The notes beneath the pieces were generated by a model that worked only from the letters and a program-made list of their open reading frames with translations, did no database searches and was not told the DNA's origin. 51,789 bases of DNA. Origin: Planctomycetota bacterium. GTDB lineage: Bacteria > Planctomycetota > Planctomycetia > Pirellulales > Pirellulaceae. Shown here piece by piece: positions 2,591 to 37,193 of the stretch; positions within the stretch are counted from its first letter, which is position 1; the number at the start of each line of letters is the position of its first letter. The stretch lies in the NCBI GenBank assembly GCA_027622275.1, contig JAQBZB010000025.1, positions 1 to 51,789 on the forward strand, written 5' to 3'. Made by a program: the position numbers and the translations under genes.

Positions 2591-2611
2591 AGCAGGTGGG
2601 CACAGCCCACT

Positions 2612-5065: not shown

Positions 5066-5085
5066 AATGTTGCGGTCGCAAGCCG

Positions 5086-6729: not shown

Positions 6730-7205
6730 GAGGGGTGCCTCGATGACAATACCATCACGGAAACAACAACACGAACCCGGGAAGAGATCGACGAGCTGAA
6801 TATGGCCTGAAGCTCGTTGGCCGACGTCTATTCTACGCTGCCGGACCTCAGGTAGCCAACACTACTACACGGATGCTGAATTGATTCCTTGGTCCCCCGC
6901 GGGCTCGTCCCGTGGGAACCGAAGATTAGCCGGTTAGTAGAAGGATCTTTGCGGACCACAGACCCCCACGAGCTTGTCTCGTGGGTGAATGAGATTCTGC
7001 GAGGCCATGTTGTTCGAGACCCTGTTGTTGGGCGGGAAGACGCGGTCGGTGAGTCTCATTCACCGAACTGGACAAGCCCGTTGGGGTCTTGGATTCGTGC
7101 ACGTTCGCTTCTAACTCACGAATCTTTTGTTCCAACGAGACGAGCTCGTTGGGGACAAGAGTCCCTCCGCGACGCCCTTCGGACCTCCGCTACGGACTCC
7201 GCTTC
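6730..7205. repeat. Gene-free stretch with a cluster of about 21-bp palindromes
   Basis: No credible gene. It holds several related short hairpins: 6891-6920, 6965-6985 (CCCACGAG, five-base loop, CTCGTGGG), 7065-7085 (partial) and 7132-7152 (CCAACGAG, five-base loop, CTCGTTGG). The loops are variants of CTTGT/ACGAG. In addition 6984-6994 and 7054-7064 are exact reverse complements (GGTGAATGAGA). They resemble REP-type intergenic repeats. Confidence 0.65.
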
Positions 7206-8006
7206 TTACTCGGCTCCGACCAAACTGAGGGCGGGACGAAAGCCGAGGTTGAAGTAGCGGACCGACGGGACGTACCGATGGCGGAACGCCGACCGGCAGT
7301 ACGCTGGCGTGAAGCTCCAACAGCCGCCTCGACGCACCCGATCCGAGGCCGAACTAGGACCAACGGGATCGGAACCACCTGGAAGTTTAGCGCCGTACCA
7401 GTCCGCGCACCACTCCCTGACATTACCGGACATATCGTGAATTCCCCACGCATTCGGCTTCTTCGTGCCAACCGGATGTGTCGAACCGCTGGAGTTCTTG
7501 TCATACCAAGCGTATTCGTCCAGCTGACTGTCCTGGTCCCCGAAGTGAAATCGCGTGGTCGAGCCGGCGCGGCAGGCGTATTCCCATTGCGCTTCGCTCG
7601 GCAATTGCAGCGTCCAACCGGCAGGAACGGAGTTCGAACTCGTTAACAGTGCTTGCAACTTCTTGCAAAAGGTCTCACATTCTTCATGGCTGACGTTGTA
7701 GACTGGGAAAACTGCGCCTTTGCCCCTCTCCGCCTCTGGACTGCTCCCCATCACGGCGGACCACAACTGCTGCGTGCATTCCGTTTCCGGGATCCAGAAT
7801 CCGCTGAGCGTCACGGAGACTTGATCCTCGTCGCGTCCTTCTTCGTAACTTGGGGTGCCCATCAAGAATTCTCCGGGCGGACACCATCGCATGGGCAAAT
7901 CGATCTCTTTCACCTTCAACAGCACACGCTCTCCTGCAGCTTGTCCGATGCCGTTGTCGTATAACGTCGCCAGCGTGATCTCGACGTGCTGCCGCGCGAT
8001 CTCCAC
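7206..8006 (-). CDS. Formylglycine-generating enzyme/SUMF1-like domain protein, possibly the detached C-terminus of the upstream kinase
   Basis: Protein of 266 residues carrying a nearly complete FGE-sulfatase (SUMF1) domain: PPGEFLMGTP at the start, then LPSEAQWEYACRAG, DMSGNVREWCADWYG, VRRGGCWSF and a C-terminal NLGFRPAL. Such domains convert sulfatase cysteine to formylglycine, but many planctomycete copies have other or unknown roles, so catalysis is uncertain. GTG 8006 is the nominal start, but no ribosome site is seen. The frame continues upstream without interruption for 18 codons to TAG 8061-8063, the stop of the kinase gene, which lies in the same frame. Kinase-FGE fusions are common in planctomycetes, so this is probably the severed end of a single protein. 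Confidence 0.75.
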   Translation of the reverse strand: MEIARQHVEITLATLYDNGIGQAAGERVLLKVKEIDLPMRWCPPGEFLMGTPSYEEGRDEDQVSVTLSGFWIPETECTQQLWSAVMGSSPEAERGKGAVFPVYNVSHEECETFCKKLQALLTSSNSVPAGWTLQLPSEAQWEYACRAGSTTRFHFGDQDSQLDEYAWYDKNSSGSTHPVGTKKPNAWGIHDMSGNVREWCADWYGAKLPGGSDPVGPSSASDRVRRGGCWSFTPAYCRSAFRHRYVPSVRYFNLGFRPALSLVGAE

Positions 8007-8060
8007 CGGATCGTCACCTTGACTCGCCCCAGCGGCACGGTTGTGCCCCGCTTGGTACGG

Positions 8061-10544
8061 CTATTGCCGAGCGACGAGTTGCACGATGGTTTGATCGACA
8101 TTGCGGACGGGCTGCGAAGCGGGCCGCGCGCTTTCGACGTTGATGAGGCGTTCCCGTTCGTCTCGTTGGGTTTTCAATTGACTTTCAAGCTGCAAGCACA
8201 GACTGCTTTCGGTCTTGTCCCGCGCCGCGAGGGCGGCGGCGACCAGTTGCCGATGTTGAGCCAACTCGGTGTTGATCCGGTCGATCGTGGGGCTGTCTTC
8301 GTTGAAGTCCAGCAACGCTGTTTTCTTTTTGATTGCGACTTTCTCGTATCCGGCCAGGGCCTTGACGAGCAAGCGATGTGCGTCGGACCACTCGGTGGTA
8401 TCGAGCGCATCGATTTCTTGTTGCAAGGTGGCGATCTCGGCCGCAGCACGAGCGACGTTCGGTCCCGCTCGCGTTTCCACTGCCGCTTGCAAGACAGCGA
8501 CTTGCCGTTCGAGCGGCGTGATTTTTCGTTGCAAGGCATCTCGTTCTTGCGTGACGGTTTCATGTTCCGACTGGAGTTCCGCCAGTTCGGCGAGTTGCGG
8601 CGATTGGACTTGGACCGTTTGTTGAAGCCTTTTGAGTTCCGCAGAGCCGACCCGGTTCTTGGCAGCTAAGTCGTCGGCACGTGTCTGCTCTTTCACCAGT
8701 TGCTCGCGATCGTCCGCGCCTTGTTTGGTGACCTGCGCGATTTGGGATTCCAATTCGCGGATGCGGGTGTCGTGCTTGTCTCGTTCCGTCTCGACGGCGG
8801 CCAACTGGGATTGCAGTTTTTTCTTGTCCTCTTCGACCAATCGGACTGTCTCTTCGTTGACCTGGGTGCGCTGCAACCATTCCTCGGGCGTTTCCTGCGT
8901 TGGCAGCCAGGCCGAGAGCTGGTCGTGGGCCAGTCCGTACAGTCGGGTCGCATCGGACCATTGGCCTTCGTCCCACGCGGCACGCGCTTCCACGCCGATT
9001 TGAGCCAACGGAGCGTAGCCCGGTTCCTTTCGCAAACGCTGGGCGACACCGCGTTGTAATCGTTCAAGAGCGGCTTGGGCGGCGAGTGCTTGACCCGCGT
9101 GCGTGTTGTCCGCGATGAGTTCGGCGAGATCGCGCTGCAAGCTGTCCAGCGCTGATTTCGCCTGTTCGACATTGCCGGTCGTCAGATCGTTACCGATGGC
9201 GGTGTAGCGGGCGTCGAGTTCGGCCTTGCGGCGGGCGATGAGATCGGAGGCGACCCACGGAATCTCGTTGAGCGGGATGGCGAGCGCCTCGCGCTGCGGT
9301 TGAGCTTGTTCTAATCCCGCGCTGACGGCGATGGCGCGACGATACAGCCGCGTCGCTTCGGCCCGTGAAGCAGCGGCGGCTGCGTCGTGGCTGCGTTGCA
9401 GTTCGTGCGATTGCTGATCGTGAGACTGCGCTTCGGACAGCAGATTGCGAACGGCATCGTATTCGGCATTGAGTTGTTCCGCTTGGCGTTGCAATTCGGC
9501 ATACTCGCGCAGTCCAGCGGCGTGCAGCAAGTCGAGATATAACCACCAACCGACCGCCGCGAAGGAACACAAGCAGCCGACCAGGAGCAGCAGTTGAGTG
9601 CGGCGGAGGCGTCGCTGCGGGCGAACGACTCGCCAATCATGCAGCGCGTCGCGGAAAGCCGCCGGCGTTGTGAAACGTCTCGATTCGTCTTGCAGTCCGC
9701 GCAGAACGACGTTCGCCAACGCTCGTGGAATGTCCTTCTCGCGAAGGCGGTTTCGGCACCGCTGCAAATGCTCCGGGTCGCCGGAACGAACGCTGTTCTC
9801 GGGCGGCACGTCGTCCGTCAGCACGTGCAACGCGACCATCGCACAGTTGTAAACTTTGTCCTTGACGTCGGCTCGTTTCGCTCCCTGCTGGACTTCCGGC
9901 GGCGAGTAGGTGGGATTGCCGTGAGCGGCGATCGTCGTGTTGCCTCGCTTGACGATTTCGCCCGCCAAGCCGAAGTCGATCAGCCGGACGTCCCCTTTGT
10001 CGTCGACCAACGTATTGGCCACCGAGATATCGCGATGGATCAGGTTGTTATCGTGGTTCAGGCGATGAATGCCGCCAGCCAGTTGCTCCAACAAGGTCAC
10101 TCGCGACTCCAGCGGCGTTTTATTCGCATCAACGAAATCGTTGATCTCGGTTCCCCGCACGTACTCGACAATCAGAAACGGTTGCAGGCCGTCGAAGTGC
10201 CTGGCATCCAGGCAGACCGGCACGAAGTCACGCGGAAAATTTGCGCTCTCCATCGTCTTCCGCTCGGTCTCCCAACTCGCGAAGCACGGCTGCGAATCGT
10301 CGCGAAACACCTTGATCGCCACCGGGCGATTGCCGTCGGTTCGCACCCCGTAATGGACCGCCGCATAGCCACCTTCGCCCAACAAGGAGGAATGCTTGCC
10401 CGGCGGGTTCGTGATCCGATAGCCAAGGTTTTCGATGGCTTGCCGCGTCGCGGGCTGGATCGCTTCGTCTTCGTGCGCGGTTCCCACGAGGTCATGCACG
10501 CGGAAGGGAGGTTTTGGCGGCGATTGTGGTTCTTTGGCATTCAT
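8061..10544 (-). CDS. Membrane Ser/Thr protein kinase with long coiled coil (N-terminal part of a kinase-FGE fusion)
   Basis: Protein of 827 residues. The kinase domain spans about 45-300 and is intact: glycine loop LGEGGYAAVHYG, AIK lysine about 78, HRDISVAN catalytic loop about 170-177, DFG about 190-192, and a SPPE motif in the activation region. A membrane helix lies about 316-338 (LLLLVGCLCSFAAVGWWLYL). The remaining 490 residues are rich in Glu, Gln, Arg and Ala with heptad-like spacing, indicating a long coiled coil, presumably outside the cytoplasm. It ends at TAG 8061, yet the same frame continues into an FGE domain 54 bp later. The start is ATG 10544 (MNAKEP); a TTG five codons upstream is also possible. 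The sigma-factor gene is 78 bp upstream on the same strand, a pairing often seen for planctomycete ECF sigma factors and kinases. Confidence 0.85.
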   Translation of the reverse strand: MNAKEPQSPPKPPFRVHDLVGTAHEDEAIQPATRQAIENLGYRITNPPGKHSSLLGEGGYAAVHYGVRTDGNRPVAIKVFRDDSQPCFASWETERKTMESANFPRDFVPVCLDARHFDGLQPFLIVEYVRGTEINDFVDANKTPLESRVTLLEQLAGGIHRLNHDNNLIHRDISVANTLVDDKGDVRLIDFGLAGEIVKRGNTTIAAHGNPTYSPPEVQQGAKRADVKDKVYNCAMVALHVLTDDVPPENSVRSGDPEHLQRCRNRLREKDIPRALANVVLRGLQDESRRFTTPAAFRDALHDWRVVRPQRRLRRTQLLLLVGCLCSFAAVGWWLYLDLLHAAGLREYAELQRQAEQLNAEYDAVRNLLSEAQSHDQQSHELQRSHDAAAAASRAEATRLYRRAIAVSAGLEQAQPQREALAIPLNEIPWVASDLIARRKAELDARYTAIGNDLTTGNVEQAKSALDSLQRDLAELIADNTHAGQALAAQAALERLQRGVAQRLRKEPGYAPLAQIGVEARAAWDEGQWSDATRLYGLAHDQLSAWLPTQETPEEWLQRTQVNEETVRLVEEDKKKLQSQLAAVETERDKHDTRIRELESQIAQVTKQGADDREQLVKEQTRADDLAAKNRVGSAELKRLQQTVQVQSPQLAELAELQSEHETVTQERDALQRKITPLERQVAVLQAAVETRAGPNVARAAAEIATLQQEIDALDTTEWSDAHRLLVKALAGYEKVAIKKKTALLDFNEDSPTIDRINTELAQHRQLVAAALAARDKTESSLCLQLESQLKTQRDERERLINVESARPASQPVRNVDQTIVQLVARQ

Positions 10545-10567
10545 GGTTTGGCCGTGCAATTCCGAAA

Positions 10568-13372: not shown

Positions 13373-16300
13373 TTGGACGAATGCTTGCGGTTGAAGCCGG
13401 ATCTGCTCAATCAAGTCAACTTCGTCAACGCGTATCTCGCGAAGCTGCGTCCTAGCGCGGATGTCGACTGGCAATATGAGACGGACGAATACGACGCATA
13501 TCTCGATCGGTTGTGGCGATTCGTGTCGCGGCTGGCTCCCGTTCACAACTCGCTGAAGACGCACGTGCTGTTTCATCGGCTGACGCTTGATCGTGCGCGT
13601 GGCGTGTACGACAAAGACCGCTTCATGGCGTACATCCGTCTGCCGCGGAACGTCGCTTACATCGAGCCGAAGTTTCTGCAGCAGGACGAGAACCGGCGCT
13701 ATGCCGCCGATCTGAATGCCAACTACGAAGCCTTCACGCTGCTGCCGCCGGTGCGCGACGACGAGCCGCTGGTGCGCAGCTACTTGCATCACTTCTTCGT
13801 CGATGAGATCGTGACGACTCCCTACGAGCCGTTTATCCTCGACAGCTATCTGCGGCATAATCTGGCCGAGACGAAGATCGTCAACGGCCTTGGCGAGCCG
13901 GAGCAATGGTACTCGCTGTTGCCGCCGGATCGTTACCAGGCGTTGAAGGACCGGATCGATCTGGACTTCGCGCCGACCAATCCCAAATTCTTCGCGGCGG
14001 ACGATCCGGTCAGTCTCGACTTGCACGTCAAGAATGTCGGCACGCTGATCGTGCGCGTGTTCGAGATCAACACGAAGAATCTCTATCGCGAACACAACCG
14101 CGAGGTGAACGCGGACATCAACCTCGATGGCATGGTCGCGAACAACGAACAAACGTTCGAGTACCCCGAACCGCCGCTGCGCCGCGTCCGTCGGCATTTT
14201 GAATTTGCCGCGTTGACGAAGCCCGGCGTTTACGTCGTTGACTTTATCGGCAACGGCATGAACAGCCGCGTCGTCGTGCGCAAGGGGCAGCTTCGCCACT
14301 TGGTCCAGACATCGAGCGCGGGCCAGGTCTTTACCGTGTTGGACGAGAAGAACGAGCGGGTGACGCGCGCGTCGATCTGGCTGACGGGTCACGAATACTT
14401 GCCGCAAGAAGACGGCCGCATTCTGGTCCCGTTTACGACGCAGCCCGGTCGGCAAGCCATCATCCTCTCGCGCGGCGATCTCTCGTCGCTGGCCTTCTTC
14501 CAACATCAGGCCGAGCAGTATCAGCTCGCCGCCGGCATCTACGTCGATCGCGAATCGTTGCTCAAGCGGACGGTGGTGCCGGTCGTTGTCCGCTCGGGAC
14601 TGATTCTGAACGGCAGTCCTGTTGGCATCGCCGATTTGGAGGATATTCGCTTGACGATCGCGTCGGTCGACCATGATGGCGTCGCGTCGACGAAAGAAGT
14701 GAAGGACTTCGAGCTGTTCGAAGATCGCGAATCGATTTACGAATTCCAAGTCCCGCCACGGCTCGCGCAATTGACCTTCACGCTCCAGGCCAAGATCCAA
14801 AGCTTGAGCCAAGGCAAGAAGCTCGATCTGCAAGGCGCGGAGTCGTTTCAGCTGAATGGGATCGACAAGAGCGAGAAGGTCGCCGACTTGCACTTCGCCA
14901 AGATCAACGACACGTACGTCATCGAATCGCGAGGCAAGTCCGGGGAAGCTCGGCCCGATCGCCCCATCGTCCTGTCTTTGCAGCATCGCGACTTCAGCTT
15001 CCCGATGATCGCGACCGTCCAGACGGACCGCGATGGACGCGTCGTCCTCGGCCCGCTCGAAGGCATCGCGTCGGTCACGGCGACCGATCCGGAAGGAACC
15101 GCGCACACTTGGCCGTTGTCCCGCGACCAGTATTCCTATCACCAGTCAATTCACGCAACCGTCGGCGAGACGATCGAGATTCCCTACATGGGATCGAACG
15201 ACAAGCCGGCGCGCGAAGAACTGTCGCTGCTAGAACTTCGCGGTGAGACCTATGTGGCGGATCGCTTCAACGCGATTCGCATCAAAGACGGCATGCTTCA
15301 ACTGCGCGGTTTGCCGCGCGGCGATTACGACCTGCTGCTGAAAGATCGCACCCATCGGATGCGCATCCGAGTGGCGGACGGCAAGAGCGGCGAAGGCTAT
15401 GCGTTGGGCAGTTCGCGGCACCTCGAATCGCGAGGCGCGAAGCCGCTGCAAATCGCGAAAGTCGAGACTGACGACAAGCAGTTGCGGATTTCGGTGAACA
15501 ACAGCACGAAGTTCGCCCGCGTTCACATCTTCGCCACACGCTACCGGCCCGCCTTTTCGGCGTTTGGAAAACTGGCAGGCGTCGGCGATCCGGAGCCGTA
15601 TCAAGTTGATCCAGGCCGAATGACTGCGCTGTATGTCGCGGGCAGAAGCATCGGGGACGAGTATCAATACATCATCGACCGCCGCTATGCGAAGAAGTAC
15701 CCCGGCGTGCTCGTCGAGCGGCCGAGCGTGCTGCTGAATCCGTGGGCCGTACGCAGCACCGAATCGGGGCGGCAAGACGCTCAAGCCGGCGATGATTTCG
15801 CGCCCGCTGCGGAACCTGAACCGGCGATGGCCGAGCACGCTGCAAATCTAGGGCTAGTCGTCGCATCCGATGGCGACTTCGCCAATCTCGACTTCCTCAG
15901 CGAGGCTTCGGTTGTCCTCGCGAACTTGCAGCCGGACGAGAAGGGAGTCGTGACGATCCCGCTCGACAAACTCGGCGCGCATCAGGACTTACACATTGTC
16001 GCCGTCGATCCGCAAAGCACTGCCTATCGCAACGTGTCACTCGACGAAAAACCGATGAAGCTGTTCGATTTGCGGTTGCTCGCCGGGCTGGATACGAAGC
16101 GGCACTTCACGCAGCAAAAGCAAGTGAGTGTCGTCGACCAAGGCGGACAATTCGTCCTGCCCGATATCGCGACGTCGCGATTCGAGGCTTACGACACGCT
16201 CGCGCGAGTCTATTCGCTGTACGCCACGTTGAGCGGCGATGCGAAGCTGGCAGAGTTCAGCTTCATCCTCACTTGGCCGACGCTGGACGCCGCCCAGAAG

Positions 16301-24373: not shown

Positions 24374-25525
24374 CTAAGGATCAGGGTTGGGTTGGGGGGA
24401 CGGTTGGCGGTTCACCAGTTTCGCGGAGTAGGTACTCCCGTATCCCGCGAGCAATTCGCCGCGCAAAGCGACGCTGCCACGAACGTCTTTCTGATCGGCG
24501 AGCTTCTGCATGGCGAGCAGCAATGCCGCTCCTGCCAACTCGGGTTGGCGGTCTCCGTAGACGGCAGGAACGCGCAATAAATCGAGCAGGCCAAGGTGCT
24601 GTGTTTCAAGTTCGTCTGAATTCAGTCGATATCGTCCCAGCCAGTACAAGCCGAGCGGCATATTGTCGCCGCTTAGTTTATCGATGTTGTCGCTCAAATG
24701 CCGCACGGCGACGTTGGGTGTGACCTGAGTCAGAACCTCACGTTGCGCCCCGATGATATCGCGCAGCTCGGTGATTGGCGTTTGTGCCGATCGAACGGCG
24801 CCAAGCACCTTCTCCGCCGTCTGGTCGTCTCCCGCTGCCGAAGCCAAACTTGCGTAGTAGATAAAGACTCCATCGGGCCGATCCTTCATGCCGCGAATCA
24901 CTTGGTACACCTTGGGCATCTCGGCCCTGGCCGCTCTCGTATCGAACCACACCGGGGTCATGTCGGAGGTGAGCGCCGTTTTGGGATCAAACAACAGTCG
25001 TCTTTCACCAGGCAGCGGAAGCTCCGTCTTGCCTCGCCGCGCCAAGATGTCGTAGCACTGTAGATACGGCGCGAGAGCCGCCTCGCGTTGCCCAACGGCC
25101 AGCCGCCCCCACATCAATGCTTGCAGGACAGTGTAGGCCGTATCGCTGGTTCGCCCGACATAGCGCTGGTGAACGGCTTCGGCGTGCGGCAACAGGCCTT
25201 CGTAGTCGCCAACCGTCAACCGCTGACGAACGCGGTAAAGGTCGCCGCCCAACTCGCCGAGCATCTTATCGAAGGCCTCTTGCTTGTCGGGCGCGACCTT
25301 GGCTTTCTCGATCTCGTCCCAACCGAGAACCTGCGTGCTGTCCAGCCGGACTCCATCCTCGTCAAACGCCGTGACGGTCTTGTCCGTGATGATCTTCAGA
25401 TTGCGCAGCACGACGCGATCTGCACCGCTAACGGCCGGAATCACCGAGCCGGAAAGCCAGAGGAGCAGTAGCAAACGAGCAAGACGGGGGCAGGCAACGC
25501 TGCTTTGTCGGCAACTCTGCTTCAT
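24374..25525 (-). CDS. Exported helical protein of unknown function, first gene of the ExbBD operon
   Basis: Protein of 383 residues with a signal peptide (MKQSCRQSSVACPRLARLLL then a hydrophobic run to AVSGA). A short beta-rich N-terminal part (DRVVLRNLKIITDKTVTAFD) is followed by TPR-like helices and a Pro-rich tail. No enzymatic motif is seen. ATG 25525 is chosen because it begins a good signal peptide; a GTG at 25555 is an alternative. Its stop is 22 bp upstream of exbB, so it is probably co-transcribed and may work with the stator complex. Divergent from rdrA. Confidence 0.7.
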   Translation of the reverse strand: MKQSCRQSSVACPRLARLLLLLWLSGSVIPAVSGADRVVLRNLKIITDKTVTAFDEDGVRLDSTQVLGWDEIEKAKVAPDKQEAFDKMLGELGGDLYRVRQRLTVGDYEGLLPHAEAVHQRYVGRTSDTAYTVLQALMWGRLAVGQREAALAPYLQCYDILARRGKTELPLPGERRLLFDPKTALTSDMTPVWFDTRAARAEMPKVYQVIRGMKDRPDGVFIYYASLASAAGDDQTAEKVLGAVRSAQTPITELRDIIGAQREVLTQVTPNVAVRHLSDNIDKLSGDNMPLGLYWLGRYRLNSDELETQHLGLLDLLRVPAVYGDRQPELAGAALLLAMQKLADQKDVRGSVALRGELLAGYGSTYSAKLVNRQPSPQPNPDP

Positions 25526-25578
25526 GGATATGTGTGATTTGCATTTCAAGGACACGCCCCGGCCCGTGGAGAATGTCA

Positions 25579-25615
25579 GTACGAGTATTGTAACCGCGGC
25601 GGGCCGGGATGTGAA
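25579..25615 (+). repeat. Left copy of a 37-bp imperfect direct repeat bounding the RADAR island
   Basis: 31 of 37 bases match 33348-33384 in the same orientation, starting GTACGA and ending ATGTGAA. The two copies enclose rdrA, rdrB, the 503-residue gene and a broken gene fragment. They could be recombination or attachment sites, or copies of a dispersed repeat. Confidence 0.5.
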
Positions 25616-25737: not shown

Positions 25738-28569
25738 ATGGCAGCGATTGCAACAAGTGACGAGTCTCAGCGGAGTGCGACTCAGCTCATCCTGCGGGGT
25801 GAAGCACAGCCTTTCCAATGGCGTTCCCTGAACGATGGGCAGCGACGAGCGTTCCAACGGATCGTTCTAGCTCTCTATGAATCTGTCCAACGACTCTCAC
25901 GAGTTGCTTCCCATCAGGACGCGGGCGAGTTGTCGTTCTACGAACGGGTGCGCGATGACGTCAATCAAACATTGCTTCTATCGGGTGATCGCGGGACGGG
26001 CAAGACTTCGCTGTTGGTCAGCATCGCGCGCGCAATGATTCACGCCTCGGAATGGGACGAGGAGATCAGATCGTACGAGAATGCGCGAGGGACAAAAGGT
26101 TTAACAGACATGGGGCGTCCGTCAACGCAGGGTTCCGATGCTGCTTCTTACAACATTGTGGGTACGAAACTAGCGACATTACGGGAGCACGTGATTTGGC
26201 TGGAACCGCTGCACATGGAGATTCTACCTGGCCCGACGAACTTGATTGCAGCGATCTTGACGCGCGTCGAAGCGATCGTCGATCGACTCGGGGTTAGTGG
26301 CTTTCGAGGCGAATCCGGACACGGACGCGGCATCCTTGATGTGCGGTCTGAGTACGAAAACACAATTCTCGAATTGAAGCGGCTGACGGCAGACGTGTCG
26401 TTGGCTTGGGACGGGAACCTTGATGAGCGAGGGGCAAACCTCGACCCGGACGGATTTGCGGCCGAGGTGATGCGCGCTGAACGTGTGAGGATGGCTCTGG
26501 TGTCGCGATTCGCCCGAGTGCTCGACTTGATCGCCCGGTTCGTGCCGTGGGACCACGGCATTCACAACCCGCTATTTGTCTTGCCGGTTGACGACTTTGA
26601 TCTCAATCCGCCGAGATGCTTGGAGCTGTTGCGGTTGCTCAGGATGCTGCGGGTGCCGCGATTGTTCTCGCTGATCCTGGGTGACATTCGTACCATGGAG
26701 CGGGTTGCTCAAATGCACTTTACAGGTGAGTTCGCGAAAATCGCCAAGGTGCGACTGCACGATGTGTCGGCTTTTGAATCGTCGCTGCATGGAATGCATA
26801 AGCCAATTACGAACGACGCGCTTCGCAAAATCCTGCCACCCGCTCAGCGCATCTACCTCAAATCGTTAGCCGGTGATGAAGTTCTCGATTTTCGCCCGGC
26901 AGGAAGTGACAAGACACTTAAGGCTTGGCTGGCCGAGCTGAAGATCAACTTGAACGCGACCAGTGAGAGCGAAGAGACGATTCCGACGGTTCTCGATTTC
27001 GTGCTGCCGCAATTACTACCTCGTGGTGTCGATGCCGAAACGGCGGACTTCGGATCCACGGATTCGGCGGCCTATAGTGTCGTTCGGACTTTCGACGCGC
27101 CGGCGCGCGTCGTCGCTGATATCTGGTTCCGCGTCGCTCAGCGAGCTGAGGACCAAATTCCAGGACGCCCCCCCTCGCCGAGCTTCGTCGTCCCGATGTA
27201 CCAGGAAGCAGTCGCGGCGGACCCGTATGTCACGAGCGACGAGACGGAAACTCTGCAACAAGTCTTCGAAGTCTACGACGCCACGCGGCGATGGGAAGTG
27301 CATCACGAGTGGGTCGACGTACGGTTTGCGGAAGCGCCTAAGCAGCACTCGGAGCTAGGCCAGGTTGTAGAGACCGCCGTGAGCTTACAGCTTTGTACTG
27401 AAGGTAAGTGGTTGGTGGCACCGCACAGGCATCGGAGCGAGGATCCTGCCGAAGTCGCCGCAGCCAACTCACGTGCGGGACAGCGGCATTTGAGCAATCA
27501 TGCGACGGCGTTGTTCGTACTCACTCACGATATGATTGCCTGTCATCCGAATCATGCCCCGGATCGCCATCTTGCCCCGGCTCCGAGCGAGATGTGTCTG
27601 GCGGCAACTGTTTGGCGGTTGCCCGAGGAGGATGTCGTTGTCCCTTGGCTGGCACCACCCTTTCGCACGTTCCGATCTTGGGATCGCTTCATTTTCTTAT
27701 GGAGACAGGTTAACTCTCGAAAGTTCACGGAACTCTCCATGCAGACTGAGGCTGACTACCTCGCATTCGCCTGGCTCGCGATTGGGACATCGCTCTTGGC
27801 TCCCACGACGTTGAGCAAGCCACTCTCTTCGGGGTGGCTCTTGGGGAACAAGCCGTTGGAGGAAGACTGGAACGATCTGTGGGAGAGCATTGGCAGTCTT
27901 ACCGTTCTTCCCAAAGAATCGGCCACGCACAGGAGTTTTGTTCGCGAGAGCTGGTTGCGGCATGTGGCGATGCTTCTGGCACCTGAAGTCTACCTTCCGT
28001 CGGTCTTTGAACGACTGCAACGGAGCCCAGCGAGGAAATGTTTGGAGACGTTCTGGCTTCTCGACGACCAGCGCTGGCTGATCCAACAAGCGCGCGCACG
28101 GCTGGCGGCTAAGTTTTACGCGCAAGGCAAGCACGAGCTAGTAAAAGCTTTTCTTCAGAATGTGAAGGGAACAAATTCCAACAGCAGCTCGCAGCAGAAG
28201 CGCGACCAAGTTAACCGCACGAAGGAGGTGATCGCCCGTGTGATCGGGGAATCCGCGTCGGGCACAACCCCGCGTTTTCCGGAATGGCAGGAGATCGCGG
28301 AGAATCTGCAGAGTTTTCCCACCTCCGGAAGTTACGACTCACGATTGCGCAAGCTGGCGGGTATCTTGCAAGAGATCCGTAAATCGTTTGCGCTGGTGAG
28401 CGACCGGTTACCACCGCGGGAAATGGCTCACGTTGCCAAAGAGGTCGATGATCAGGCGGTCGCGATCAGCGAACAGCTGAGTGCACGGCGCAGCTCGCTG
28501 AACGAGCTTGGGAAGGGTGCGCTTTGTCCGACGCCGGAGCAGATTGCCGAATGTATCGCTTCCCCGTGA
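25738..28569 (+). CDS. rdrA: RADAR anti-phage system ATPase RdrA
   Basis: Protein of 943 residues. Walker A is LLLSGDRGTGKTSLL (GDRGTGKTS at 83-91). Walker B is VLPVDDFDLN (281-290) with the acidic pair 285-286, and SLILGDIRTM (about 311-320) fits the next sensor strand. The long C-terminal half is helical with no recognised domain. Length, motif spacing and the adjacent adenosine deaminase gene fit RdrA, the AAA+/STAND-like ATPase that assembles into rings with RdrB and responds to phage infection. ATG 25738 is chosen (AGGG eight bases upstream); the frame is open back to 25618, but the added residues come from the tandem repeats and look non-coding. rdrB follows after 34 bp. Assignment rests on motifs and gene pairing; a homology search would confirm it. 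Confidence 0.82.
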   Translation: MAAIATSDESQRSATQLILRGEAQPFQWRSLNDGQRRAFQRIVLALYESVQRLSRVASHQDAGELSFYERVRDDVNQTLLLSGDRGTGKTSLLVSIARAMIHASEWDEEIRSYENARGTKGLTDMGRPSTQGSDAASYNIVGTKLATLREHVIWLEPLHMEILPGPTNLIAAILTRVEAIVDRLGVSGFRGESGHGRGILDVRSEYENTILELKRLTADVSLAWDGNLDERGANLDPDGFAAEVMRAERVRMALVSRFARVLDLIARFVPWDHGIHNPLFVLPVDDFDLNPPRCLELLRLLRMLRVPRLFSLILGDIRTMERVAQMHFTGEFAKIAKVRLHDVSAFESSLHGMHKPITNDALRKILPPAQRIYLKSLAGDEVLDFRPAGSDKTLKAWLAELKINLNATSESEETIPTVLDFVLPQLLPRGVDAETADFGSTDSAAYSVVRTFDAPARVVADIWFRVAQRAEDQIPGRPPSPSFVVPMYQEAVAADPYVTSDETETLQQVFEVYDATRRWEVHHEWVDVRFAEAPKQHSELGQVVETAVSLQLCTEGKWLVAPHRHRSEDPAEVAAANSRAGQRHLSNHATALFVLTHDMIACHPNHAPDRHLAPAPSEMCLAATVWRLPEEDVVVPWLAPPFRTFRSWDRFIFLWRQVNSRKFTELSMQTEADYLAFAWLAIGTSLLAPTTLSKPLSSGWLLGNKPLEEDWNDLWESIGSLTVLPKESATHRSFVRESWLRHVAMLLAPEVYLPSVFERLQRSPARKCLETFWLLDDQRWLIQQARARLAAKFYAQGKHELVKAFLQNVKGTNSNSSSQQKRDQVNRTKEVIARVIGESASGTTPRFPEWQEIAENLQSFPTSGSYDSRLRKLAGILQEIRKSFALVSDRLPPREMAHVAKEVDDQAVAISEQLSARRSSLNELGKGALCPTPEQIAECIASP

Positions 28570-28603
28570 CTCGGTTCGCCGTGACCTGCCGACAGGCGTT
28601 GAA

Positions 28604-31417
28604 ATGTCTCACCTAAGAACCGCCACGATACCGATCGACCACGTGTTGGCGGAAATGGCTGCCTTCCCGTTGGCTTCGCCGACATCGATGAGTTTGGGGC
28701 TCGCAGCGTTGGATCCGCGGTTGTCGCTAGATTCAGCGGCGGGAAGCGCGCAGCACCAGACAGCTCGTCTGTGGCGAGCCGCCGAGGCGTCTTTGGTCCG
28801 CGGCTGTCCCGCGGTTTCCGTCGACGAGTTGGTTGCCGTACGCGATGATGTGTGGTTCAGCGCGGCGCGAAATTCGGCTCCTCTGCCGCTGCATCGATTC
28901 CTCCACCATGTGGCCGCTCGCCATTTGAAGCCGCACGGAGCATCCGCGTCACCCTGCGTGTCGAACGCGACTCTGCAACGGGACGACCGAGACGAGGCAG
29001 TGCTCAATTCGCGAGCGCGCGAAGTCTGGCGGTGGCTGACTTTCGCCTTGCCGCCTGATTTGCTGCTTGCTGCTTTAGGGAACGGCCGTTCGATGCCGGT
29101 GACTGTCGAGTCGATTTCACCGCAGATCGCGTTAGACCTGAAGACACACGGATTCGCCGAGAGTCATCTGCACCTTGGCGCCGCATTTGAATTTGGCCTG
29201 TATTGGGTCGCGACCTTGTGTAGCTTGGCTGATCGGCAATTGACGAGTAGCGGCTTTCAAAGCCCCGGTGCGGAACTCGAAGAAGGGCGGGAACTCGCCT
29301 CCTGGTTGTTACATGGGGCGATCGTGAGATACGTTCTGGCGGGGTTTCTATTTCATCATAGCGACGCGAGCGCAAAACGCCGTAACTTGAGCGAGTATCT
29401 GCGGCATCATGTCTTTTCACCCGTCCAACGGCGGCTCGGATCGACTGCCGCGGTACTCTTGTATGGAGTGATCAATGACCTCGGGGCCGGCCAGCCGGTG
29501 ACTGATGCGGAGCGATTTGCGCTACTTCAGGATCTCTACCGGCAACTGACCGGTGCTACACCAAACTCCTTTCCACACTGCAAGACAGCACGGCCTGGCG
29601 ATGTCTGCGCGCCACATCTTCGACAGGCCATGCTGGCCGACCCGATCGCCGGGATGTGGTCCTCCTCCGGCGATCAGGGCCCATCGCCTGAAATGCTGTT
29701 CATTTCAGCAGGTCTCGGATATCTGAAACAGCGTGAGATTCGCGACAGCGATGCGGTGTTTGCCAAACTCTTCTGGCAAGTTGTCAGGACGCGCAATGTC
29801 CTCTATCGGCACATCGTTCAACGACCGCTCACACCGGGACTTCAATGGTTCGTCCGCACCTTTGGTCGGCTCGCTCCGGGGAAATCACCGTTGGATATCT
29901 GCATGTTCGTTGAGAGCGCCGCACAGGTGTGCGGCATCGGGCGAGGCCTTCGCGCGCTCGAAGTGCGCACTTCGCCTGGCGGAGACCGAAAGAGCTTGCT
30001 ACAGATGATCCGTATGGCAGATTCGCACTTTCAAGATGTGGTTGCTTCGCCCAAAACTCAGCAGGAGCGGAGTGGGCGCGGAACAGTCGGCGATCCGCCC
30101 TGCGAGTTTGGAATTGTTTTTCATCTGACAAAAGATCGTGGCGGCGGGGCTCGTGAGGGTGCGCCAGCCGCCGACTGGTATCGGTCTCACGCCGACCCCG
30201 ACCCACGCCACGGGAGCAACGTTCTGGGGTATCGTTATTCGCGTTACTATCAACAGGCCCGGCGTCAGGCCAGCAGCTTAGCGCGTGTCCTGCTTGACTT
30301 TCCGCTTTCGCTGGCGGTCGTTCGGGGCATTGACATTTGCACGGACGAACTCGGAACTCCGACTTGGGTGTTCGTTCCGTTGTTTCGTTATCTCCACGAG
30401 GTGTCACGCTCCGTATCCGCGTGGCTGCAGACACAGGCCGGGCTACAGATTCCACCGCTCCGCACGACGGTCCATGTCGGCGAGGACTACGTCCACTTAC
30501 TGGGTGGCTTGCGGCGTATTGACGAGGCGATCCGTTGCCTTGGCATGCGTGAAGGTGATCGGCTCGGACACGCGGTGGCGCTGGGAATCGACGCGCGACG
30601 GTGGTGCCTGGGAGCCGGACGTGTTCCGATGATGCGAGAAGAGAGGCTTCTCGACCTGACTTGGGAGTGGTCGTTCATCTCTGTTAACGGGATCCCGGCG
30701 TCCGCGCAGCGCCAAGCCTACCTTGAACGCGAGATTGCTCGTTTGTCGATGACATTGTTCGCTGACGATCCGATGACGCCCTATGATTGTGACGTCTTTG
30801 TTCGCTACTTGCATCGCGAGGATGCGTTGGCAAGACTTGGATTCCCAGGCGGATGGCAGCACGCCAATCCGCCATCGCGCGATGGCGTGCTTGGCACGGC
30901 TTGGCCTGCGAGGACGATGCATCGCTTGAAGCAGTATCTGAGTTGCCCAAGGCTCTTCCGTCGCGGTCGCGTGATCGAATGGATCGATCCGAGATCCGAG
31001 GTCGACACACTCGAGGCCTTGCAAGAGCAGCTTCGTCGTCGCGCCAGCGAGATGGGATTGACAGTTGAGGCGAACCCTTCGTCCAATCTCCTGATCGGCA
31101 ATCTTGGTGATTTGAAGTCGGGACATCCGTTCTGGCGTTTCGACCCACCGACGCCAACGAACGAGACCCATCGCGTCCCCCTGTGCATCGGCTCGGATGA
31201 TCCAATCACCTTCGGCACCCAGTTACGCGGCGAATACATGTTGATTCACGATGCGCTTGTACTCGGTGGCACTTCGTATGCGGATGCAGACGAATGGCTG
31301 GCACGCGTGAGGGAGAATGGCCTTCGCTCGCGTTTTACGATCCCACGACCTAATAGCGATGACATCTGCCATTGGCATGGCACCGTCGATGAATCGAGAC
31401 TACAGCCGATTCTGTGA
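28604..31417 (+). CDS. rdrB: RADAR adenosine deaminase RdrB
   Basis: Protein of 937 residues, far longer than a metabolic adenosine deaminase but right for RdrB. The metal-dependent deaminase motifs are present in order: SHLHLG (H188, H190 as zinc ligands), HVGED (H624, E627), RLGHAVAL (H656), a VEANPSSN segment (about 821-828) and CIGSDDP (D865, D866). Long insertions separate the first two motifs, as in RdrB. The system is known to deaminate adenosine nucleotides or RNA during infection, halting phage growth. ATG 28604 follows the rdrA stop by 34 bp; the longer ORF starting at 28508 overlaps rdrA and encodes an Arg-rich non-conserved extension. Tail-to-tail with the 503-residue gene, only 19 bp apart. 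Confidence 0.87.
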   Translation: MSHLRTATIPIDHVLAEMAAFPLASPTSMSLGLAALDPRLSLDSAAGSAQHQTARLWRAAEASLVRGCPAVSVDELVAVRDDVWFSAARNSAPLPLHRFLHHVAARHLKPHGASASPCVSNATLQRDDRDEAVLNSRAREVWRWLTFALPPDLLLAALGNGRSMPVTVESISPQIALDLKTHGFAESHLHLGAAFEFGLYWVATLCSLADRQLTSSGFQSPGAELEEGRELASWLLHGAIVRYVLAGFLFHHSDASAKRRNLSEYLRHHVFSPVQRRLGSTAAVLLYGVINDLGAGQPVTDAERFALLQDLYRQLTGATPNSFPHCKTARPGDVCAPHLRQAMLADPIAGMWSSSGDQGPSPEMLFISAGLGYLKQREIRDSDAVFAKLFWQVVRTRNVLYRHIVQRPLTPGLQWFVRTFGRLAPGKSPLDICMFVESAAQVCGIGRGLRALEVRTSPGGDRKSLLQMIRMADSHFQDVVASPKTQQERSGRGTVGDPPCEFGIVFHLTKDRGGGAREGAPAADWYRSHADPDPRHGSNVLGYRYSRYYQQARRQASSLARVLLDFPLSLAVVRGIDICTDELGTPTWVFVPLFRYLHEVSRSVSAWLQTQAGLQIPPLRTTVHVGEDYVHLLGGLRRIDEAIRCLGMREGDRLGHAVALGIDARRWCLGAGRVPMMREERLLDLTWEWSFISVNGIPASAQRQAYLEREIARLSMTLFADDPMTPYDCDVFVRYLHREDALARLGFPGGWQHANPPSRDGVLGTAWPARTMHRLKQYLSCPRLFRRGRVIEWIDPRSEVDTLEALQEQLRRRASEMGLTVEANPSSNLLIGNLGDLKSGHPFWRFDPPTPTNETHRVPLCIGSDDPITFGTQLRGEYMLIHDALVLGGTSYADADEWLARVRENGLRSRFTIPRPNSDDICHWHGTVDESRLQPIL

Positions 31418-31436: not shown

Positions 31437-32948
31437 TCAAGTGCTTCGTAATGCTCTGGGCAGCGTTCCGCTAGAAAAACCGTGGAGCCTAAGCGTTACA
31501 TCATTTGCCTGACGTAGAACGTCGTCACGAAACGCATCATCGGGTACGACTTGCTCTTCCGCCAGATCGGTGTCGTAAGAAGGCAATCCTGCCAGGCGGT
31601 CCTTTTGGGCGGACACGTCTCGTAAATGCGAGAAGGGCTGGGCCGGCCAGTTCCGCTCCACTTCCGCTTGGTTCAGTTGATCGAGTGTATGACAAGCAGA
31701 ATTCGTTGCGGCGTGTCGTCGCAATCGCCTAGCGACCGCATCGACCGCGTTGAGATAGGATTGCTCATGCTCACCAACACTATCTCGCGACAGGAAAATG
31801 TGCGCGATGACCCGATGAACGTCGAACGGTTCACCATCGTCCACAATACAGCCACGGTGAGACGGACTAGAGTCGTGGGCCTGTACGACAACGCGCGTGT
31901 TCATATCTCGCAGTTCGGCAATCATGCCACCGTTCGCGGCGGTTCCTTCGACTAAAACCAAGTCCGGCGGCGTATTGTTGCCATGAAACGCTCGCCGTGG
32001 CGGCACGTCGACGACACCGGCCATGCTACGTCCCGCTTCCGATTGCCAAGCTTCAGAGCCGAACAACCATACCTTGAAACGAGGACTTGCATCCTGTGCC
32101 ATGTTGGCCAGCGGGTTGACGGGACGATCAGCCAAGTGCAACAACCGAAACTCGCGCCGAATCGTCTTGCTCATTCGTGCCCAACGATCGCGAGAGCAGT
32201 CAAGGGCCAAGCACTCGAATCGCCACTTGATCGATTCCAGACACTCGTGGATGAGAGGCGTCTCGGCCTGGTACCCGCGCTTCTCGGCATCATGCTGGAT
32301 GCGGAGGACACGGTCCCCGACTTTACCGTGCAAGTTGAGGACTTCTGCGTTGTCTGCCTCGGTCCAAGAGTTAAGATCGATCGTTGCCCGAAAGTAGTTG
32401 ACAAGGAACAGATGCCGAGTCTTGATACAAAGATCGATCGCGTTGTCATCTCGCTTCAGTCCTAGGTGGACGTCGTCTAACGCTCGTTGGAGCAATAGAT
32501 CAGGATCCCACCCACGCGGGACGGGGATCGTGAGTTCGTCTGCCAGTCCATTCTCGCCAAGCTGCGCTTGCCACAACTCCAACAAGACGGCAAGCCGCGA
32601 TGTCTCACTGAGCGCCATATTCACTGCGGTGACCGAGCGCTGATACTCGTCGCGCCCCAACCAACCGAACACCTGCCCCGCTGGAATGTTTCTATCGATG
32701 TGTTGGTCGGCCGCGTTGACCAAACGCTTTGCCAGATTCGCCATATGCACCGAGACGTCAAACTGCGGCAGCGTCAGATTGAGGCGCTCGCTGTCGACCA
32801 GGTTTCGAAGTCCAACCACCGTTACATCCAGGAGTTGGATTTTCTGTTTCCAGTCGATGAGCGCAGAAGAATGGAAGAATTCACGCCGGAGCACGTGCGC
32901 GAACAGCGTCGCATACATTTTGGCTCGACCGATGCTAGCAGCGCACAT
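31437..32948 (-). CDS. Unknown 503-residue protein convergent with RADAR, candidate accessory or regulator
   Basis: I do not recognise this protein. Residues 1 to about 285 are predicted helical (for example SETSRLAVLLELWQAQLG; CLESIKWRFECLALD). About 290-415 looks like a Rossmann-type alpha/beta domain with strands FKVWLFGSE, PDLVLVEG, TRVVVQAHD and IAHIFLSRD and Asp/Ser residues at strand ends, resembling receiver or TIR-like folds, but no family motif is certain. The tail is charged. No membrane helices are seen, so it is not the RdrC (Csx27-like) or RdrD (SLATT) protein of known RADAR loci. Its stop lies 19 bp from the rdrB stop. It starts at ATG 32948 or ATG 32918. It lies within the 37-bp direct repeats, so it probably moves with rdrAB. 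Confidence 0.65.
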   Translation of the reverse strand: MCAASIGRAKMYATLFAHVLRREFFHSSALIDWKQKIQLLDVTVVGLRNLVDSERLNLTLPQFDVSVHMANLAKRLVNAADQHIDRNIPAGQVFGWLGRDEYQRSVTAVNMALSETSRLAVLLELWQAQLGENGLADELTIPVPRGWDPDLLLQRALDDVHLGLKRDDNAIDLCIKTRHLFLVNYFRATIDLNSWTEADNAEVLNLHGKVGDRVLRIQHDAEKRGYQAETPLIHECLESIKWRFECLALDCSRDRWARMSKTIRREFRLLHLADRPVNPLANMAQDASPRFKVWLFGSEAWQSEAGRSMAGVVDVPPRRAFHGNNTPPDLVLVEGTAANGGMIAELRDMNTRVVVQAHDSSPSHRGCIVDDGEPFDVHRVIAHIFLSRDSVGEHEQSYLNAVDAVARRLRRHAATNSACHTLDQLNQAEVERNWPAQPFSHLRDVSAQKDRLAGLPSYDTDLAEEQVVPDDAFRDDVLRQANDVTLRLHGFSSGTLPRALRST

Positions 32949-33271: not shown

Positions 33272-33347
33272 TTAGATTTCCGGGTCCGGTGCATAAAGTC
33301 TAGGCTGGTTGCGCTCAACCACACACCACCTACACCCTAATTCTAGG

Positions 33348-33384
33348 TACGAATATTGTAGGCGCGGTGAGCCGGAATGTGAAA
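33348..33384 (+). repeat. Right copy of the 37-bp imperfect direct repeat
   Basis: Matches 25579-25615 at 31 of 37 positions, same orientation, about 7.8 kb away. Beyond it ordinary planctomycete genes resume at 33626; 33385-33625 shows no gene or structure I can support. Confidence 0.5.
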
Positions 33385-33625: not shown

Positions 33626-34177
33626 ATGCTCTGGACCACTTTTGCCGTCGCGTTGGCGCTGGGATATCTGCGGCAATTCGATTCGCCGACCGTGTTTGCC
33701 TCCGCCGCGATTGTCATTGCGACTGCCGTCATTGTCGGAGGTTTGATCGGCTGGCCGGTTGGCCGAACGGGCGACGCCACGTACTGGGCGGTCGTGATCG
33801 CGACGGCGGCTTTTCTATCGGTGGCTGGCGATCCAGCCGCACCGGCGAGCTTTCGTTACGCGTGGTCCGCTGTCGGAATGCTTGCCGGTGCCGCCTGCGG
33901 CGCGGTCGCGCCGAGGCAGGTGTTGCGACGCGCGTTCTTTGGGGCGGGCGCGGGTGGCGCGGCCATGCTGGTTTGTTCGATGGCAATGCCCGTCCATGAC
34001 CTCGAATCGGTGTTCGATCTAATCTGTGCGCCGATTATTGGTGGATTGGTCGCTGTGCTGATCGAACTGATTCTTTGGCTCGAACGCGAGCGTTACTCGC
34101 CGCGTTACATCACGGCGTCTTGGCTGCTGTGCGCGGTGATCGTTGGGAATCTGCTCGTGCCGTGGGTGCTGGCTTAG
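33626..34177 (+). CDS. Small integral membrane protein of unknown function
   Basis: Protein of 183 residues that is hydrophobic almost throughout, with about five membrane segments (including VFASAAIVIATAVIVGGLIG, YWAVVIATAAFLSVAG, GAGGAAMLVCSMAM, ICAPIIGGLVAVLIELILWL and ASWLLCAVIVGNLLVPWVLA). No enzyme or transport motif is recognised. ATG 33626 starts it, although the frame is open upstream for about 40 codons and the phrase QFGIS just before resembles the cytoplasmic lead found in related planctomycete membrane proteins, so a non-ATG start further upstream is possible. Confidence 0.6.
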   Translation: MLWTTFAVALALGYLRQFDSPTVFASAAIVIATAVIVGGLIGWPVGRTGDATYWAVVIATAAFLSVAGDPAAPASFRYAWSAVGMLAGAACGAVAPRQVLRRAFFGAGAGGAAMLVCSMAMPVHDLESVFDLICAPIIGGLVAVLIELILWLERERYSPRYITASWLLCAVIVGNLLVPWVLA

Positions 34178-34556: not shown

Positions 34557-34886
34557 CGCTCGACTCCCTCGTAGATGTAAGGCAGACCGCCTTGGAAGAT
34601 AGGTTGTAACCACTCGGTTCGCTACAATCATACGCAAGGGTCGTGCCAGAAAAACCGTTTGCACACTGCCAGACGGACGCAAACGGTTAGGATTGCACGG
34701 TTTATGCCTGCCGAAGCGGCGATCGGTGTACTCGTGCAAGCTTCCAATTGTTGTAGAAGTTACATTGCCGAAGAAAGACTCTGTCCGCACTACTCCCCAC
34801 TTCCCGATTTCGGTAGTGGTGGATTCCAGCCGCCATTGTGCGGTGGCGGCTGGAAACCAACCCTACACCTTCCCGAATGGACTCGC
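34557..34886. other. Divergent intergenic region before the helicase gene
   Basis: About 330 bp without a gene. It holds palindromic element F (34813-34866) and presumably divergent promoters. The open frame that runs through it ahead of the helicase is not coding. Confidence 0.5.
34813..34866. repeat. GTAG...CTAC palindromic element F
   Basis: Arms 34813-34835 and 34844-34866 are reverse complements with about four mismatches and an eight-nt loop. The arm core (TTCCAGCCGCCA) matches element A at 2527-2590, so the two are members of one family. Confidence 0.7.
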
Positions 34887-37193
34887 ATGACGCTCACTTC
34901 CCCGACTCGCGATGAACTCGCCAGCGATTACTTCGATCAACTGGAGTTTGATCCGTATCCGGTGCAGGAAGATGCGTTGCTAAACTGGTTCGCCTCGGAG
35001 CAAGGCGTGTTGGTCTGTGCTCCGACGGGGACGGGCAAGACGCTGATCGCGGAAGCGGCATTGTTCGAGGCTTTGAAGACGGGCAAGCGGGCGTACTATA
35101 CGACACCGCTGATCGCGCTCACGGAGCAGAAGCTGCAAGAGATGCAAGCGGCGGCGGTTCGTTGGGGATTCAGCGAGGACGATGTCGGTTTGGTAACCGG
35201 CAATCGGCGAGTCAACCCGGACGCGCCGATCTTGGTTGTCGTGGCCGAGATCCTTTTCAATCGTTTGCTCCATGGCGAGCAGTTTGAATTCGACGACGTG
35301 TGCGCGGTCGTGATGGACGAGTTTCATAGCTTCAACGATCCGGAACGCGGCATCGTCTGGGAGTTAACACTCGGCTTGTTACCGGAGCATGTGCGTTTGC
35401 TGTTGCTGTCGGCGACGGTGGGGAACGCGTACGAGTTTACGAGTTGGCTGCGGCGAGCACACAATCGCAATCTCGAGTTGGTTCAGAGTGACGAGCGGAG
35501 AGTGCCGCTGACGTATCACTGGATCGGCGATGCGCTGCTGACGGAGCATCTGGAGTGGATGGCGGCGGGGGATGAGGAAGCTCGCTATACGCCGACCCTG
35601 GTCTTCTGTTTCAATCGCGAGCAGTGCTGGAACGTCGCCGAACAACTCAAGGGCAAGTCGGTATTGCACGACGGCCAACAAAAGCGATTGCTGGCGGAAA
35701 TGGAACAATACAACTGGTCACAGGGAGCGGGACCGAAACTGAAGCAGATCTTGCAGCGCGGCGTCGGTGTGCATCATGCGGGTGTGCTGCCAAAGTACCG
35801 CCGCATCGTCGAAGAGCTGTTTCAACTAAAGCTGTTGTCGGTTTGTGTTTGCACCGAGACGCTGGCGGCTGGAATCAACTTGCCGGCACGAAGTGTCGTG
35901 ATCCCGGAATTGCTCAAAGGTCCGCCCGACAAGAAACGCCTGATCGAAGCCAGCGCCGCGCATCAAATGTTTGGCCGTGCCGGCCGTCCGCAGTTCGATA
36001 CGCAAGGGCACGTGTTCGCGCTGGCTCACGAAGACGACGTGAAGCATCTGCGGTGGAAGGAAAAGTACGATCAAATTCCCGAGGACACCAAGGATCCGGG
36101 GCTGCGGAAGGCGAAGAAGGCGCTCAAAAAGAAGATGCCGAAGCGCCGCACCAATCAGCAGTATTGGACCCAGCAGCAGTTTGAACAGCTTCGCAACGCG
36201 CCGTCGAGCAAGCTCGTCAGTCGCGGCCCGCTGCCGTGGCGGCTGTTGGCTTACATGCTCGATGTGTCGCCCGACCTCGCGCTGATTCGCTCGCTGGTCG
36301 ACAAGCGGTTGCTGGAAGGCAAGCAATTCGAGTCCGGCCAAAAGACACTCAATCGGATGCTGATGACGCTTTGGACGGCGGGTTACGTCACACTCGATCC
36401 GGAGCCGCCGAAGGAAGAAGATGCCAGCGACGGAAAACTGGGACTGGTGGAAGCCGAAGACGGCTCTGCGCCAGAAACCTACCAACCGCAGTTCGCTCAT
36501 CCGACCGACACGATGCAACGCCTGCTTCACTTTCGTGGCGTGAATCCGTTGTATGGAGTCTTCTTACTCAATCATCTCGGCATCGCGGATCGCGCCGAGC
36601 GAATTCAAGCGATCGAAAGCATCTTGGAGATTCCTGGTTCGGTGGCGCGTTTCGTCCGCGTTCCGAAGCACGAAGAAATGCCTCCCGGCCCGCTCGCCAC
36701 AACGCGTCTGGATGTTCATCTACTCCAGCTCGGTTTGGCCACACTCGAACAACTCGGAGCGGCCGAAGACGAGGAAGACGACAACCAACGGCGGCGTGGT
36801 GACGGCATCTTTGAAGAGGAACGCGTGTGGGTATTGACGCTGGCCGAGAAGTTACGGCTGTTGTTCGATCATGACTTCCCCGGCGTTCACGACGTCCGCG
36901 TCGTGCCCGTGTGGGCGGCGGGCGAATTGCTGGAATTTGGTGGCGACTTCAATAACTTCATCACCAGCAACGGACTGCAAAAGCAAGAAGGCGTCATCTT
37001 CCGGCACTTGCTGCGGATGATCTTATTGCTGGCCGAATTCAAGCAACTTTGTCCGCCGGATACGACCGAAGAAGAGTGGCGAACCGAACTGGACGACATC
37101 ACCGATCGGCTGGCGGAATCGTGTCGCCAAGTTGATCCAACCAGTACGGACAAGACGCTGGAGCAGGCCGAGCAGACTGGTGAGATCCCGTAG
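34887..37193 (+). CDS. DEAD/DEAH-box (Ski2-like) helicase
   Basis: Protein of 768 residues with superfamily 2 helicase motifs: the Q-motif-like [10 protein letters not shown] (about 24-33), motif I APTGTGKT (45-52), motif II DEFH (144-147), motif III SAT (175-177), a [12 protein letters not shown] motif V region and motif [11 protein letters not shown]. The [17 protein letters not shown] segment and DEFH are typical of the Ski2/Mtr4 group of RNA (or DNA) helicases. The C-terminal third has a Lys-rich stretch ([17 protein letters not shown]) and no recognised domain. ATG 34887 is chosen; the longer frame includes the palindromic repeat. Its TAG stop (37191-37193) lies in another GTAG motif. 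Single gene. Confidence 0.9.

Follow-up and report, generated by a model that had tools for sequence, protein, structure and literature searches.

We identified a pair of adjacent genes in a Planctomycetota bacterium that is a divergent new member of RADAR, a known bacterial system that defends against phages by poisoning the nucleotide pool; a passenger gene, so far unexplained, accompanies the pair. The window, the whole stretch of DNA analyzed, is 51,789 nucleotides long (contig JAQBZB010000025.1, assembly GCA_027622275.1). We interpret the pair as a divergent, standalone-type RADAR system acquired by horizontal transfer, to which we assign a probability of about 0.87. This reading draws on direct observations: both proteins are homologous to RADAR components, the genes stand in RADAR order, the catalytic residues are kept, the locus that received the insertion is conserved, and the distribution is patchy.

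The rdrA-like gene (25738-28569, + strand) codes for a 943-aa AAA+ ATPase, recognized through NCBIfam, PADLOC, a PDB profile search, hhalign, and fold matches; its frame runs from an ATG at 25738 to the stop at 28569 and is also open from a GTG at 25618. The rdrB-like gene (28604-31417, + strand), recognized through NCBIfam, PADLOC, PDB entry 8fnw, and hhalign, codes for a 937-aa adenosine deaminase, with its ATG at 28604 and its stop at 31417. The two genes are adjacent, with rdrA first and a gap of 34 bp between them. An earlier note, made from the letters alone, had proposed RADAR on the basis of the motifs in both translations and of gene length, order, and close spacing; the coordinates prove right, all of the quoted motifs are present, and the lengths, same-strand order, and spacing are as in RADAR. 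All of these motifs are read from the + strand. RdrA has a Walker A motif, GDRGTGKTS (residues 83-91; 25984-26010), which aligns with E. coli RdrA G81 K82 T83, and a Walker B motif, VLPVDDFDLN (residues 281-290; 26578-26607), which aligns with D221 D222, the E. coli positions being those given in the available text of PMC9994260. RdrB has the zinc motif ESHLHLG (29159-29179; SHLHLG is residues 187-192, with H188 and H190), HVGED (residues 624-628; 30473-30487), RLGHAVAL (residues 653-660; 30560-30583), and CIGSDDP (residues 861-867; 31184-31204), the first aspartate of which, D865, is present in 14/14 RdrBs, and the second, D866, in 13/14.

The RdrB-like protein matches the NCBIfam RdrB profile with an E value of 1.1e-48 (score 166.5) and the PADLOC RdrB profile with 2.1e-42. 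A single-sequence search aligned it with the solved E. coli RdrB (PDB 8fnw) at E 2.6e-29 over residues 539-911 only, and a profile of five members of its clade matched the same E. coli chain at E 4.3e-51. Against a set of eight RdrBs, drawn from Paenibacillus and from plasmids, hhalign aligned 758 columns (probability 100%, E 6e-78). The active site of E. coli RdrB is composed of H152, H154, H498, H530, and E501 (PMC9994260, in the portion available), and alignment places the equivalents in the window at H188, H190, H624, and H656 (the zinc histidine tetrad) and E627 (the catalytic glutamate). H498, E501, and H530 are placed by the significant PDB alignment, and H152 and H154 by a piece of the profile alignment with an insignificant score, backed by hhalign and by the alignment of 14 RdrBs. 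All five residues are identical in 14/14 aligned RdrBs, and homology to known RdrB is secure from these sequence comparisons. Identity to seven RdrBs from plasmid records is 24-30% over 30-60% of the protein. Six RefSeq plasmid proteins match the window RdrB, five of them named 'hypothetical protein' and one rdrB; the phage records searched yielded no match.

For RdrA, the match by sequence alone is weak but significant, with an E value of 4.6e-11 (score 41.9) against the NCBIfam profile and 1.4e-5 against that of PADLOC. A single-sequence PDB search with the window RdrA found no RdrA entry; a profile of six relatives placed two RdrA entries first, 8fnt (E 1.2e-5) and 8hr7 (E 1.7e-5), with the next entry at 0.005, and hhalign against eight RdrAs gave 99.3% (E 9e-21). 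The Walker residues G88, K89, D285, and D286 are identical in 13/13 RdrAs and T90 in 12/13; D316, at sensor 1, is an aspartate in 10/13. The AlphaFold model has a mean pLDDT of 50 overall, with values mostly below 60 past about residue 400; only portions of its N-terminal ATPase region can be used. There, the best seven VIA fold matches are all RdrA (Z 16.0 to 13.5), led by RdrA 8hr8 (Z 16.0, model residues 21-333) and followed by BrxC at 11.0 and ORC/Cdc6 below 10; the ten best Foldseek rows are also RADAR entries. The VIA rows cover residues 21-330 and include no full-length RdrA match, the C-terminal part being unmatched because the model is of low confidence beyond the ATPase part. Homology to RdrA is secure for the ATPase domain, which, as modeled, is closest to RdrA among solved structures. 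With both the RdrA and the RdrB profile matching significantly, and the zinc-site residues aligning with H152/H154/H498/H530 and E501 of E. coli RdrB, the RADAR identity first suggested from motifs holds.

Both proteins score far under the NCBIfam equivalog cut-offs (NF041743 and NF041744; RdrA 41.9 versus 600, RdrB 166.5 versus 800), which are annotation thresholds and not biological features. Control RdrBs encoded on plasmids also fall under the cut-off, with scores of 161.5 (the SLATT-associated Aureibacter copy), 162.2 (Rhizobium), and 180.5 (Cetobacterium), and the RdrB cut-off thus does not separate the window RdrB from these controls. Divergence of this extent is normal for RADAR: three working systems differ from one another as much, their RdrBs being 24-28% identical and their RdrA ATPase domains 22-25%, according to the part of PMC9994260 at hand. 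The low identity to plasmid RdrBs, together with the fact that the residues surrounding the substrate beyond the zinc site lie outside the RdrB comparison, leaves some room for a RADAR-descended pair acting on another substrate, such as RNA adenosines (the first RADAR proposal) or a signaling nucleotide. We consider this improbable, given that the zinc tetrad and catalytic glutamate are conserved throughout the aligned RdrBs and that conversion of ATP to ITP has been demonstrated for E. coli RdrB (PMC9994260, available portion). A decayed, inactive copy is less probable again, and very much so: both frames are full length and free of stops, and every catalytic residue tested is kept. Its one point of encouragement is a relative, locus L023, that is perhaps damaged, with rdrB split over two overlapping frames, and there an assembly error is possible.

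Relatives of the window RdrB were sought in one genome per species across 84,980 species, using an RdrB alignment and two peptide patterns, so members without those patterns are missed. The scan returned seven loci (L019-L025), two of which were already among the genomes found (L022 is genome G108 and L024 is G218). DNA upstream of rdrB is present in six of the seven, L021 starting within rdrB, and an rdrA-like frame lies there in 6/6 (L019, L020, L022, L023, L024, and L025); the window RdrA as tblastn query gave E values from 3e-69 to 9e-5. In the locus from an Acidobacteria metagenome-assembled genome (MAG; L020), a frame resembling a type IIG restriction enzyme-methyltransferase (2265-5717; PADLOC E 2.1e-84) ends just before rdrA.

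In a maximum likelihood tree of 15 RdrBs, the window belongs to a six-member clade (support 100/99) that is separate from E. coli-type RdrB; the other members are one Acidobacteria MAG, one Rhodospirillales MAG, and three further rows from Planctomycetota. L025 groups with Cetobacterium. The highest identity to the window RdrB in the tree set is 45% over 651 columns, to L021, which is a 680-aa partial sequence. The tree leaves out L023, for its split rdrB, and G241, for its short match (E 1.7e-4), and is to be read with the long branches of L018 and L010 and the unusual letter make-up of nine rows, the window included, in mind. The planctomycete G371 (L010) codes for a much more divergent RdrB (7722-10271; NCBIfam RdrB E 1.9e-33) that keeps the zinc residues; the frame that overlaps the start of this rdrB (5644-7725, 693 aa) has a P-loop and no NCBIfam RdrA match.

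Close to home, rdrB is found in 2/196 relatives and in 4/392 genomes of the phylum, with the window's own genome counted both times; of the four phylum matches, one is short and weak. The gene is thus rare, patchy, and accessory within its own lineage. A literature search that mostly lacked subscription papers found no paper on RADAR in planctomycetes.

Comparison with genus mates locates the insertion. The left flank of the window aligns with genus mate G001 to position 25622 and the alignment resumes at 34197; the segment 25623-34196 is absent from G001, which has 86 bp instead. An imperfect 37-bp direct repeat, neither copy of which has a third counterpart in the 9.78-Mb draft genome (searched with a pattern from both copies, ≤3 mismatches), is present at 25579-25615 and 33347-33383 (both + strand; 84% identical, self-BLAST E 9e-5). 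The repeat fits the borders suggested by the empty site in G001, and it bounds an insert of about 7.7 kb that carries, besides rdrA and rdrB, a single further gene. These borders and the third gene go beyond what the earlier note mentions.

The genes flanking the insert recur in relatives. To the left lies a gene (24374-25555, − strand), outside the system and beside a TolQ/ExbB-like gene, that is 72-77% identical in two genus mates. To the right is a DEXH helicase gene (34659-37193, + strand; homology from about 34872) present in 6/6 related genomes, with best matches 68-90% identical. Between the right repeat and the helicase is a gene for a 183-aa hydrophobic protein (33626-34177, + strand), of which genus mate G002 has a copy that is 77% identical (76% in DNA) and G001 has none. 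It looks like an old neighbor by its G002 copy, and for this reason we place the end of the foreign part ahead of 33626.

Two other assignments for these flanking genes were considered and rejected. The 183-aa protein might have served as a RADAR membrane stand-in, but it has no SLATT match, and in G002 its copy sits on the matching side of the left flank gene; its absence from G001 is a counterpoint to this rejection. The helicase matches PADLOC HamB (E 3.6e-29), as expected of Hachiman, but no HamA match was found in the neighbors scanned, and the helicase is conserved in all six relatives; in both G001 and G009, less than 1 kb separates it from the left flank gene.

The two genes flanking the insert are 33 kb apart in G002 (G002:C52:103668-137113), where the helicase is turned relative to the other gene. 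Within these 33 kb (L039, L040) are an open frame of 3844 codons and a gene for a Ser/Thr kinase that matches PADLOC PD-T4-6 models. From the flank spacing, the turned helicase, and the kinase gene, this site seems prone to rearrangement and insertion.

The third gene on the insert is a convergent ORFan (31437-32948, − strand; 503 aa) of no known family, with 19 bp separating the end of its frame from the rdrB stop. Apart from rdrA, rdrB, and this ORFan, we take no sizeable frame on the insert as a gene. The 503-aa protein has no match in Pfam, NCBIfam, PADLOC, or PHROGs, and, its own copy apart, no homologue in viral contigs, plasmids, 392 genomes of the phylum, or 196 relatives (two genus mates included). 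Its codon-position GC (0.655/0.419/0.621) is gene-like; an almost identical pattern comes from the complementary frame, and codon GC by itself thus does not fix the strand. Position-3 GC (0.621) is similar to that of rdrA (0.644) and rdrB (0.634) and lower than that of three flank genes (0.695-0.708). No Kyte-Doolittle segment exceeds 1.6, the highest being 1.04, and a VanZ-family control is also under that threshold (1.37); the test is therefore a weak one, and the protein is only likely to be soluble. The structure model (mean pLDDT 36) is useless.

A possible counterpart lies in G108, a genome of the same family, in which a 543-aa gene directly follows rdrB on the same strand and precedes a TIR gene (Pfam TIR_2 E 3.6e-14). 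The 503-aa and 543-aa proteins have short collinear blocks in common, and their alignment score was reached by 8/500 shuffles in local mode (Z 2.9) and 2/500 in semiglobal mode (Z 3.9), with eight other proteins giving Z ≤1.9. BLASTP with the partial copy gave only E 0.028, and single-sequence hhalign gave E 0.055 with a score of 22.0, when shuffles reached 25.8 and the unrelated control P0002 27.6. A relationship between the two is possible from these alignments. A tblastn search (E 0.1) with both proteins against loci L001-L025 found only their own copies, and thus no counterpart was detected at other loci of the scan. The 543-aa protein has no homologues in viral contigs or plasmids, only itself among the 196 relatives, three short matches (E 0.001-0.006) in the 392 phylum genomes, and one PHROGs match at E 0.14. 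In this same G108 genome (KLAP7; L003/L022), rdrAB is followed by the 543-aa and TIR genes (5667-8203), and further on L003 has another frame, TIR-like at its N-terminus, with weak PADLOC matches (13716-16031); the region looks like a defense island.

These observations raise the question of whether the 503-aa protein is a functional third component of a three-gene RADAR variant, acting as a regulator, an immunity factor, or a second effector. Its place on the insert, its absence from relatives, its position-3 GC, and the weak alignment with the gene that follows rdrB in G108 suggest as much; but the gene is on the strand opposite to rdrAB, the hhalign comparison is not significant, the BLASTP match is weak, and the other loci lack a detectable counterpart, so we hold this idea to be possible but less likely than not. 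A fuller form is more doubtful: an apparently soluble, unnamed protein would replace the SLATT, Csx27, or (in Cetobacterium) VanZ-family gene, and its counterpart in the related planctomycete would be TIR-coupled as a second effector arm.

We favor instead the standalone reading. PMC7699616, which comments on the first RADAR report, distinguishes three subtypes in its available part: rdrAB by itself, rdrAB with Csx27, and rdrAB with SLATT. The earlier note had stated that the planctomycete copy lacks the known RdrC or RdrD membrane protein. This stands for SLATT, for which the 503-aa and 183-aa neighbors have no NCBIfam match while the same library recognizes SLATT in the RADAR locus of the Aureibacter plasmid (E 9.4e-17); PADLOC misses that control and Pfam scores it under its cut-off, so those two libraries say little. 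For Csx27, PADLOC, Pfam, and NCBIfam gave no match beside the window rdrAB, in a search run without a Csx27 control. A missing SLATT is not unusual, since rdrAB alone is a described subtype (PMC7699616, same excerpt), and by gene content the pair appears to fit that standalone subtype.

Other neighbors occur beside RADAR genes on plasmids. A VanZ-family gene (7768-8199; Pfam VanZ E 3.4e-21) lies 72 bp after rdrA-rdrB on the same strand in the Cetobacterium somerae plasmid NZ_CP092520.1 (L012), where rdrA-rdrB is annotated as hypothetical; it is a possible accessory other than SLATT or Csx27. The Rhizobium leguminosarum plasmid pRLN3 (L013), the gene table of which is incomplete and gives rdrA-rdrB as hypothetical, has an adenylosuccinate synthetase gene (8962-10563) 0.9 kb downstream on the same strand. 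Adenylosuccinate synthetase is a purine enzyme acting on IMP.

As to how the window system works, we infer its assembly, trigger, substrate, and anti-phage effect from the E. coli system. In RADAR, RdrA has a C-terminal domain unique to it and forms a heptameric ring, and RdrB is a dodecamer. The window RdrA would likewise be an AAA+ ring ATPase that reacts to phage infection and docks on a shell of RdrB. RdrB, as a zinc adenosine deaminase, would turn ATP into ITP and dATP into dITP; E. coli RdrB converts ATP to ITP in the account available from PMC9994260. Nucleotide conversion would then stop phage replication, probably at the cell's cost. An action like that in E. coli is most likely here because the same catalytic residues are present in both proteins.

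With this pair, RADAR gains a clade whose members come from several phyla and are missed by the NCBI named-family cut-offs; their natural variation can serve to map the substrate pocket and the interface between RdrA and RdrB. The ORFan on the insert offers an inexpensive way to ask whether the accessory proteins of RADAR extend beyond the described membrane ones.

Among known systems, the closest comparison is with E. coli RADAR (RdrA 8fnt; RdrB 8fnv and 8fnw), which likewise has a pair of neighboring genes on one strand, each about 900 codons long, an AAA+ ATPase with Walker A and B motifs, and a deaminase with a zinc histidine tetrad and glutamate. The window system differs in its low identity, the separate clade of its RdrB, and the extra convergent ORFan on its insert. 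The RdrA of S. suis RADAR (8fnu) has the same ATPase fold (Z 13.5, 212 aligned residues), although identity is 14% over the aligned part. SLATT- and Csx27-associated RADAR have the same rdrA-rdrB core, the copy compared being that of the Aureibacter plasmid with its SLATT gene; unlike the SLATT-associated systems, the window pair has no SLATT gene alongside. Cad1, a CARF-fused effector of type III CRISPR, is also an adenosine deaminase that converts ATP to ITP (PMC11645235, in the part available), whereas the window RdrB has no CARF match in PADLOC, Pfam, or NCBIfam and is paired with an RdrA instead.
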